From positions 1 through 64,000 of the forward strand of contig NZ_JAUSUQ010000014.1 in assembly GCF_030814135.1 (NCBI RefSeq): 64,000 nt of DNA. Reading direction: 5' to 3'. Below are positions 2,098 through 33,717 of the stretch, piece by piece. Each line of letters starts with the position of its first letter. Positions within the stretch are counted from its first letter, which is position 1. The notes beneath the pieces were generated by a model. The model had not been told where the DNA came from. It saw only the letters and a program-made list of their open reading frames with translations, and made no database searches. The DNA comes from Caldalkalibacillus uzonensis (GTDB lineage: Bacteria; Bacillota; Bacilli; Caldalkalibacillales; Caldalkalibacillaceae). Both the position numbers and the translations under genes were made by a program.

Positions 2098-2162
2098 TAT
2101 CTGTTAAATGACATGCAGAGATGATGAAATGACAGAGGAGGACCTCTTCATTCCTGTCACTC

Positions 2163-2233
2163 CGCACGTAGTCAAGCAATTTACGGTTGCCTGGTAGAGA
2201 CACCTGAGCCATATTCTCAGGCATATACGCGCG
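2163..2233 (-). promoter_or_regulatory. Purine (guanine-class) riboswitch aptamer
   Basis: On the minus strand the three-helix purine aptamer is recognisable. P1 pairs CGCGCGT (2227-2233) with ACGTGCG (2163-2169). P2 has the loop AATATGG, J2/3 reads GTCTCTACC, and P3 carries the L3 signature ACCGTAAAT. J3/1 reads GACTACG, with C at the specificity position equivalent to xpt C74, so the ligand should be guanine or hypoxanthine rather than adenine. It lies in the leader of the purine permease gene. Confidence 0.93.
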
Positions 2234-2275
2234 AAACAATAATATTGATGTTAAGACATGCCTGTAACCATCTTT

Positions 2276-28291: not shown

Positions 28292-29326
28292 TTAATCCCT
28301 CTTTTGCCTGAAATGATTATACCCGGCAGGGGCCAAACATTTTTTGGTTTTATCCGTTTCCAGCCACACCCGTCCTGTCCCCTCTGATGTATAACCAATG
28401 GGGTAAAAAGCAAAACCTTGGTCTCTAAACGCCTGACGGATCCGCCCCACAACCTCAGCCTGTGCTGTGCCCACCAGGACGAAATCTTCCCCGCCGCCAA
28501 GTACCCATGTATACGGGTCTACACCACGCTGCCGGGCATAGCTGAGCAAGACGTCACTGACAGGCAACTGTTCTTTCCGAATCACCACATCAACTCCGCT
28601 GGCTGCAGCTATCTCATTGGCTTCACTGGCCAGACCATCGCTGACATCGTTGAGGGAAATAGTGTGCGCTTTGGCAAAACGGGCCAGTATACGCCCCTGA
28701 TCCACATGGGGGAGCGGCTGCTGGTGGGCATCTAAGAGCAGCTGCCATACTTTTTGTTCCCGATCAGCGGTGTATCCGTGCAGCAGCAGATCCAGCCCCG
28801 CTGCTGCATGGCCCAGCGGACCGGTGACAAACACAACATGTCCGGCTTGGGCTTGTGAACGAAGGAGGCGGACCTCTTCTTCCACCTCCCCGATGGCGGT
28901 AATGGTGATCACCAAGTGATCAGGGGTGGAAACGGTGTCCCCTCCGAGCAGGTCCACTTTAAACCGGTCCGCCAGCGCCTGCATACCTTTATAGATGTCC
29001 AGCAGCTCCGTATATGTCCAATCCTGAGGAATGGCAATGGATATAATGAAATAAGCGGGTTTTCCTCCCATGGCAGCAATATCACTTAAATTGGCAGCCA
29101 GCGCTTTATAACCGATTTGCCAGCAAGACATGGTTTCCCGTTTAAAATGAACGCCTTCCACCATCGTGTCCACTGTGACCACTTGCCCCATACCTTTTCC
29201 GGGGCTGTAGACAGCGGCATCGTCCCCTACTGGAACAAGCGTTTGACCAGCCCGGTAGTTCCGGAAAAGAGAGGAAACATCCCTGATAAAGGCAAATTCA
29301 TTATCTAGCTTTTGTTGATCTCCCAC
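28292..29326 (-). CDS. thiL: Thiamine-monophosphate kinase
   Basis: 344 residues. It phosphorylates thiamine monophosphate to the diphosphate. VGDDAAVYSPG, DTMVEGVHFKRE, ALAANLSDIAAMG and LGGDTVSTPD are the conserved AIR-synthase-like motifs. I place the start at a GTG (29326) 7 bases after GGGGG; the ATG at 29374 has no ribosome binding site and a TATAAT sequence lies within the extra codons, suggesting a promoter there. It heads the thiL-tsaE-tsaB-rimI-tsaD operon, as in B. subtilis ydiA-E. Confidence 0.93.
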   Translation of the reverse strand: MGDQQKLDNEFAFIRDVSSLFRNYRAGQTLVPVGDDAAVYSPGKGMGQVVTVDTMVEGVHFKRETMSCWQIGYKALAANLSDIAAMGGKPAYFIISIAIPQDWTYTELLDIYKGMQALADRFKVDLLGGDTVSTPDHLVITITAIGEVEEEVRLLRSQAQAGHVVFVTGPLGHAAAGLDLLLHGYTADREQKVWQLLLDAHQQPLPHVDQGRILARFAKAHTISLNDVSDGLASEANEIAAASGVDVVIRKEQLPVSDVLLSYARQRGVDPYTWVLGGGEDFVLVGTAQAEVVGRIRQAFRDQGFAFYPIGYTSEGTGRVWLETDKTKKCLAPAGYNHFRQKRD

Positions 29327-29417
29327 ATCTATTCCCCCAGCCCGACAGATGCTTACTCTTTGATTATATCCCATCTAACGGTTACAATAAAAGCGAAGGG
29401 ACACGAGGAGGTGGCCT

Positions 29418-29726
29418 ATGATGAAGTTGCATGTGACTAAAGCAGCCTTGGCTGAATTGCAAGATTACGCCATTCCAGAAGGAAAAGGGTTGCGTATTGA
29501 TGCACAAATAACCGGTGGCTGAAGCTGCACGGTGGATATACAGCTGGCTCTGGATGAGCCCAGACCCAATGATAAAATAATCAATATTGATCATCTTACC
29601 TTTTTTATTGACCGTTTCACCCAGCGTTATGTTGGGGAATCACTCACGCTTGATTTTGATCCGGCACAAGGTTTTCGTTTGTCTAGCCCCGAAGAAATTC
29701 TGTGCCAAGGCATCACGATTTATTAA
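29418..29726 (+). CDS. HesB-like selenoprotein with in-frame TGA (Sec35)
   Basis: 102 residues if TGA at 29520-29522 is read as selenocysteine. GAGGAGG stands 6 bases before the ATG. Codons 1-34 end in DAQITGG and codons 36 onward begin SCTVDIQLALDEP, one continuous HesB/IscA-like fold: the TGA falls at the conserved first cysteine (family motif GGCSG). The reading frame downstream stays open for 67 codons with normal codon use and a late cysteine (LCQGITIY). HesB-like selenoproteins are an established family; the Sec residue replaces a metal- or cluster-binding cysteine. A stem-loop suited to be a SECIS lies 28 bases after the TGA. The alternative is a recent nonsense mutation. Divergent from thiL. 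Confidence 0.78.
29544..29563 (+). promoter_or_regulatory. Candidate bacterial SECIS element
   Basis: Stem GGCTC (29546-29550) / GAGCC (29556-29560), extended by CT/AG across a one-base bulge, with the five-base apical loop TGGAT. The loop starts 29 bases after the TGA and carries G at its second and third positions, which satisfies the published bacterial SECIS rule (G among the first two loop bases, 16-37 bases from UGA). It is part of the coding sequence, as expected in bacteria. Confidence 0.55.
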
Positions 29727-29774: not shown

Positions 29775-29809
29775 CAAGGGCTGTCTCAAAGCGTTTGAGA
29801 CAGCCCTTG
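29775..29809. repeat. Perfect long inverted repeat between converging units
   Basis: 16-base arms CAAGGGCTGTCTCAAA/TTTGAGACAGCCCTTG with a 3-base loop. It lies between the HesB-like gene and the convergent tRNA-Pro/tRNA-Gly unit and probably serves both as a terminator, although no T run follows on either side. The arm sequence resembles ends of insertion sequences that have been reused as hairpins in Bacillales; that origin is a guess. Confidence 0.7.
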
Positions 29810-29839
29810 TATGTACTCGTCATTTAAACATAAAAATGG

Positions 29840-29910
29840 AGCGGGTGACGGGAATCGAACCCGCGCTGCCAGCTTGGGAAGCTGGAGTTCTACCACTGAA
29901 CTACACCCGC
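29840..29910 (-). tRNA. tRNA-Gly (CCC)
   Basis: Cloverleaf on the minus strand: acceptor GCGGGTG/CACCCGC, D-arm with GTTCAGTGGTAGAAC, anticodon stem CCAGC/GCTGG with loop TTCCCAA (anticodon CCC), T-arm GGTTCGATTCC. Discriminator T and an encoded CCA (29837-29839) follow. Second gene after tRNA-Pro. Confidence 0.95.
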
Positions 29911-29922
29911 TCGCTCACATGG

Positions 29923-29996
29923 TCGGGAAGACAGGATTGTGAACCTGCGACCCCTGGTCCCAAACCAGGTGCTCTACCAAGCTGAGCCACTTCCCG
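29923..29996 (-). tRNA. tRNA-Pro (TGG)
   Basis: Acceptor CGGGAAG/CTTCCCG, anticodon stem CCTGG/CCAGG with loop TTTGGGA (anticodon TGG), T-arm with GGTTCACAATCC. Encoded CCA at 29920-29922. First gene of a two-tRNA unit. Confidence 0.95.
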
Positions 29997-33116: not shown

Positions 33117-33136
33117 AGAGCGATTATTATGTATGG

Positions 33137-33219
33137 TGCGGTCGGTGGGATTTGAACCCACACGCCCAATGGGCACTGCCCCCTCAAGACAGCGTGTCTG
33201 CCAGTTCCACCACGACCGC
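33137..33219 (-). tRNA. tRNA-Leu (GAG)
   Basis: Acceptor GCGGTCG/CGACCGC, anticodon stem CTGTC/GGCAG, loop TTGAGGG (anticodon GAG), a long variable arm TGCCCATTGGGC, T-arm GGTTCAAATCC, encoded CCA at 33134-33136. Last gene of the cluster. Confidence 0.95.
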
Positions 33220-33274
33220 AAATTGGCACAATATAAGCACAATATAAGATTAAAATAATAAGAATTTAAAGTGG

Positions 33275-33346
33275 CTGGGCCGGCTGGATTCGAACCAGCG
33301 CATCACGGGGCCAAAACCCGTTGCCTTACCGCTTGGCTACGGCCCA
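33275..33346 (-). tRNA. tRNA-Gln (TTG)
   Basis: Acceptor TGGGCC, anticodon stem ACGGG/CCCGT with loop TTTTGGC (anticodon TTG), T-arm GGTTCGAATCC, CCA encoded at 33272-33274. Confidence 0.95.
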
Positions 33347-33356
33347 ATGTGAATGG

Positions 33357-33430
33357 CGGAGCTGACGGGATTCGAACCCGCGATCTCCTGCGTGACAGGC
33401 AGGCATGTTAGGCCTCTACACCACAGCTCC
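33357..33430 (-). tRNA. tRNA-Asp (GTC)
   Basis: Acceptor GGAGCTG/CAGCTCC, anticodon stem CCTGC/GCAGG with loop CTGTCAC (anticodon GTC), T-arm GGTTCGAATCC, CCA encoded at 33354-33356. Confidence 0.95.
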
Positions 33431-33441
33431 GCTTTAGATGG

Positions 33442-33516
33442 TGACCCGTAGGGGATTCGAACCCCTGAATGCCGGCGTGAAAGGCCGGTGTGTTAAGCCA
33501 CTTCACCAACGGGCCA
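33442..33516 (-). tRNA. tRNA-Glu (TTC)
   Basis: Acceptor GGCCCGT/ACGGGTC (one G-T pair), anticodon stem CCGGC/GCCGG with loop CTTTCAC (anticodon TTC), T-arm GGTTCGAATCC, CCA encoded at 33439-33441. Confidence 0.95.
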
Positions 33517-33547
33517 TAAGATGATTGCTAACACGCGTAAATAATGG

Positions 33548-33637
33548 CGGAGAAAGAGGGATTCGAACCCTCGCGCGGCTGTTAGCCGCCTACTCCCTTA
33601 GCAGGGGAGCCCCTTCAGCCAACTTGGGTATTTCTCC
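33548..33637 (-). tRNA. tRNA-Ser (GCT)
   Basis: Acceptor GGAGAAA/TTTCTCC, anticodon stem CTCCC/GGGAG with loop CTGCTAA (anticodon GCT), a long variable arm (GGCGGCTAACAGCCGC), T-arm GGTTCGAATCC, CCA encoded at 33545-33547. Confidence 0.95.
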
Positions 33638-33645
33638 GCAAATGG

Positions 33646-33717
33646 CTCCGCAGGTAGGATTCGAACCTACGACCAACCGGTTAACAGCCGGTTGCTCTAC
33701 CACTGAGCTACTGCGGA
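33646..33717 (-). tRNA. tRNA-Asn (GTT)
   Basis: Acceptor TCCGCAG/CTGCGGA, anticodon stem ACCGG/CCGGT with loop CTGTTAA (anticodon GTT), T-arm GGTTCGAATCC, CCA encoded at 33643-33645. First gene of the cluster Asn-Ser-Glu-Asp-Gln-Leu. Confidence 0.95.

Follow-up and report, generated by a model that had tools for sequence, protein, structure and literature searches.

A divergent HesB/IscA-fold selenoprotein predicted in Caldalkalibacillus uzonensis and other Bacilli

The 64,000-nucleotide stretch of Caldalkalibacillus uzonensis DNA analysed here (the window) almost certainly encodes a HesB/IscA-fold selenoprotein, whose gene is interrupted by an in-frame TGA codon. The computed support consists of coding sequence on both sides of the TGA, exchange between selenocysteine (Sec) and cysteine (Cys) at this site among relatives, the presence of the Sec machinery in the source genome and a conserved SECIS-like structure; on these grounds the product is regarded as a HesB-like selenoprotein, i.e. 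one of a known kind, and from the same evidence we infer that Sec is actually incorporated at residue 35.

Reading frame and the in-frame TGA codon

The coding sequence (29418-29726, + strand) is composed of 34 codons, the TGA (29520-29522, + strand), 67 more codons and a TAA, and yields, when the TGA is read as U, the 102-aa product MMKLHVTKAALAELQDYAIPEGKGLRIDAQITGGUSCTVDIQLALDEPRPNDKIINIDHLTFFIDRFTQRYVGESLTLDFDPAQGFRLSSPEEILCQGITIY, in which Sec is residue 35 counted from 29418. This layout in a single frame had been proposed in an earlier reading made from the letters of the DNA (the sequence-only reading), and was confirmed by translation. The strong ribosome binding site noted in the same reading is the Shine-Dalgarno sequence AGGAGGTGG, seen at 29406-29414 (+ strand), and a GGAGG-type site is also located upstream of several homologues. 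The start could be refined to the second ATG at 29421, 6 nt from the Shine-Dalgarno, which is the likelier one since the homologues begin there. As had also been anticipated, standard gene calling truncates the gene: translation with table 11 leaves downstream only a 64-aa fragment from 29532.

That the table 11 reading halts at codon 35 is what would be expected if the TGA were a genuine stop in a decaying or sequencing-damaged hesB gene, the downstream part of which is dead. However, the same codon is TGA in homologues from 13 genomes, always at the HesB Cys site, the divergence beyond it is biased towards synonymous changes (19 of the 26 codons 3' of the TGA that differ between the window and the related genome G001), and the SECIS is conserved (see below); the pseudogene reading was therefore rejected as highly improbable. 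In a genome of the same genus, the frame is kept with 88% identity and an intact TGA. Furthermore, the Pfam model PF01521 (Fe-S_biosyn, HesB/IscA) spans the TGA, covering residues 2-100 with 51.9 bits (E=1e-13) against a gathering score of 26.3 bits, which places the selenoprotein in the HesB/IscA fold family.

Downstream of the gene, a perfect 16-bp inverted repeat with a 3-nt GCG loop (29775-29809, no strand assigned) lies between the selenoprotein gene and a convergent tRNA-Gly gene, and may be a terminator shared in both directions. The window also contains two tRNA clusters on the - strand (29837-29996: Gly, Pro; 33134-33717: Leu, Gln, Asp, Glu, Ser, Asn), the order of which is partly conserved in the related genomes G001 and G002, and a purine riboswitch at 2149-2250 (- strand, 88.2 bits).

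Exchange with cysteine, synteny and the selenocysteine machinery

The protein was matched in 38 of 121 related genomes. An alignment of the homologues puts Cys at the position of the TGA, in agreement with the earlier proposal that this codon stands at the cysteine of the HesB/IscA motif; the UGA thus lies in frame at a site where Cys is conserved, as is required of a bacterial selenoprotein gene. Within the window clade, i.e. the clade of Bacilli proteins to which the window protein belongs, the aligned homologues have no residue other than Sec or Cys at this site. Unrelated substitutions at this codon in close relatives, which the sequence-only reading had named as evidence that would count against it, were accordingly not seen, the close relatives having either TGA or Cys. 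A read-through of the TGA without Sec, by Trp suppression or a near-cognate tRNA, has nothing specific in its favour; the close relatives substitute Cys, never Trp, and the source genome possesses the Sec machinery including a tRNA-Sec. This possibility was rejected as well, and we consider it just as remote as a true stop.

The machinery genes, for which a search had been advised and whose absence would have spoken against the sequence-only reading, were all found in the source genome (G000; 3.88 Mb, 53 contigs): selA (589.5 bits), selD (420.5 bits), selB (379.9 bits), and, about 1 kb from selB, the tRNA-Sec gene, which was called by both ARAGORN and the Rfam model RF01852 (73.9 bits). The selD gene (L040, G000:C9:182097-183026) is itself interrupted by an in-frame TGA at GGUGCK, and an fdhA-like gene (L085, G000:C8:161298-162044) by one in RIUHSS, both of which are standard Sec sites.

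Since the tRNA-Sec model, applied to 399 genomes at E<=0.001, gave some match in nearly every genome, selA was chosen as the marker of the Sec system. It scored above the cut-off in all 13 genomes with a TGA-bearing homologue versus 5 of the 25 other matched genomes (Fisher p=1.6e-6, a value that ignores shared ancestry, with weak matches to other subfamilies counted among the 25), and the genomes hosting Cys-bearing close homologues are mostly without selA.

The exchange can also be followed at a single locus. In three genomes (the source genome, G001 and G002), the Sec gene adjoins a block of thiL-, tsaE-, tsaB-, rimI- and tsaD-like genes, named from reading their translations, and in G003, a genome without selA, a Cys homologue adjoins the same block. 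The first gene of this conserved block in the window (28292-29374, - strand) is oriented divergently from the selenoprotein gene and encodes a ThiL-like protein of the AIRS family, a distant relative of SelD; it is a syntenic marker of the locus and stands outside the Sec system. A search of a contig collection with the single protein as query returned no match, and the same search with a six-sequence alignment recovered one clear relative, on contig JACDOE010000001.1 of a Bacillaceae MAG. A Cys gene related to the window clade (L021) and a Sec gene of the GUGGP type (L095) coexist in a single genome, G095.

The candidate SECIS element

Past the TGA, the window contains a candidate SECIS, CTGGCTC-UGGAU-GAG(C)CCAG (29544-29563, + strand), with a stem of 7 bp including one bulged base and the apical loop UGGAU. 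The sequence-only reading had placed a stem-loop with a GG-bearing loop 29 bases after the TGA; the stem-loop does exist, and that distance describes its loop rather than its stem, because the stem already begins 21 nt past the TGA, whereas its loop follows at 28 nt. Its description as a candidate SECIS was borne out by comparison across Sec and Cys homologues. All 17 Sec genes have a helix of 6-8 bp that closes a UGGAY loop, positioned at +31 when counted from the first base of the TGA (28 nt past the codon), and the core TCTGGAYGAR occurs at this fixed distance in 17/17 Sec genes versus 0/24 Cys homologues, counts that leave out five TGA-bearing loci (L063, L064 and L068-L070) lying outside the motif filter. 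The stem comes in two registers across the Sec genes, with or without one bulged base, and its pairing is retained through C-G/U-A and G-C/C-G/U-G exchanges. When compared with synonymous-codon shuffles, the Sec segments are more stable than expected (mean z -1.64) and the Cys segments are not (0.00); the strength of this signal lies in the whole set, since the p-values of single genes are mostly modest.

According to a published model of the bacterial SECIS, the element has a loop of 3-9 nt with a G within the first two bases, a stem of 4-16 bp, a spacing of 16-37 nt and an MFE of -7.5 or lower (PMC13188914). With its UGGAU loop, a stem of 7 bp, a spacing of 28 nt and an energy of about -8.0 kcal/mol, the window element agrees with this model. 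In the window RNA alone, however, a slightly more stable alternative at -9.7 kcal/mol competes with it, so that the element is not the fold of lowest energy there and its pairing probability is ~0.1 or less. The SECIS assignment therefore rests on the comparison of homologues, and this competing fold is the weakest point of the SECIS case. If the assignment is right, the stem-loop beginning 21 nt past the UGA would recruit SelB and Sec-tRNA(Sec), and by this route Sec would be inserted at residue 35, where IscA has the first of its metal-ligand cysteines.

Place among HesB-like proteins and possible role

HesB-like proteins are an established selenoprotein family in published surveys (PMC1794560, PMC13188914), and a conversion of Sec to Cys that left a putative SECIS remnant has been reported (PMC1794560); the Sec/Cys pattern described above is thus an expected one. 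The sequence-only reading had likewise stated that such selenoproteins exist in Firmicutes and other bacteria. The HesB-like protein of Methanococcus maripaludis, which is of the TIGR01911 type, is cited as 75Se-labelled in PMC11097638, where the function of this archaeal member is described as not clear. HesB-like selenoproteins have been assigned a UxGP motif (PMC13188914), whereas the window protein reads GGUSCT. Likewise, it scores 23.2 bits with TIGR01911 (HesB_rel_seleno; curated cut-off 66.35) and 33.3 bits with NF038090 (IscA_HesB_Se; cut-off 85), the latter being its best NCBIfam match, over residues 4-94. The first of these models was searched in 398 genomes across the phylum, none of which contained a protein over the cut-off, and most of the matches listed carry a TGA; the TIGR01911-like TGA genes inspected (e.g. 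L092-L111) are mostly of the GU[G/S]GP type.

Proteins of this type share with the window clade the Sec at the same HesB cysteine and, in many of the Bacillota members examined, a SECIS-like loop (UGGAY or GGA) that falls on the homologous LxLDE codons. On the other hand, the window clade has GGU[S/G] without GP, its loop lies 28 nt rather than ~25 nt after the UGA, and the window protein is without the Cys-rich tail. As the loop of many GUxGP-type genes of the same phylum reads UGGAY or GGA and lies 25-26 nt past the UGA, the sequences suggest that the SECIS of the two groups may be shared and ancient. In a phylogenetic tree, from which the mis-framed row L099 of the TIGR01911-like set was omitted, the split between the Bacilli proteins (the window clade and a second Sec clade) and the GP type receives 99/93 support; the branching order of Sec and Cys members inside the window clade is poorly resolved. 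The earlier assignment to HesB-like selenoproteins is supported, and is refined to a divergent branch without GP or CxC. What is new here is this Bacilli clade with GGU[S/G], no C-terminal CxC and scores below the NCBIfam cut-offs, and the novelty is modest.

The AlphaFold2 model of the protein has a pLDDT of 89.9, and its top PDB folds are IscA/SufA. It has the same fold as the IscA/SufA/ErpA structures (PDB 1r94, 1s98, 2d2a and 1x0g), at an identity of about 20-28%, and in the alignment Sec35 takes the place of IscA's first ligand Cys. From this likeness, the selenoprotein could be a true A-type Fe-S carrier that uses Sec for one cluster ligand. However, the C-terminal CxC of these structures, and with it the three-cysteine arrangement of A-type carriers, is absent from the protein and from the window clade; the only thiols besides the selenol of Sec35 are those of Cys37 and Cys96, both unconserved; and the genome already encodes one canonical three-Cys IscA paralogue, with GGC...CGC. 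A standard A-type carrier is less likely because the CxC is missing and this paralogue is kept, and we regard such a role as rather unlikely. Most likely, the protein would work through a lone selenolate, or perhaps through two of them in a dimer, in redox chemistry or in the binding of a metal or an Fe-S species.

A function in selenol redox chemistry or in the binding and detoxification of metals or metalloids, unrelated to Fe-S assembly, would fit the lone conserved Sec/Cys without CxC, and uncharacterised selenoproteins are mostly presumed to be redox proteins (PMC13188914); against it, there is no UxxC or CxxU motif, no redox partner gene is located in the syntenic block, and proteins of this fold are otherwise known for their part in Fe-S biogenesis. 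We consider this a real possibility, albeit one with the odds against it. Somewhat more tentatively still, the Bacilli GGU[S/G] clade might form a functionally distinct lone-selenolate HesB-fold family, in which the species bound or delivered would not be a standard Fe-S cluster.

The finding adds a selenoprotein branch that is well supported by comparison, truncated by standard gene calling and missed by the curated models. The phylum-wide TGA-bearing HesB-like genes, with none of the 398 genomes over the TIGR01911 cut-off, point to a gap in annotation. At one syntenic locus, the exchange of Sec for Cys is accompanied by the absence of selA, and the occurrence of Sec and Cys orthologues within one order provides a compact case for studying the role of selenium in a HesB-fold protein.
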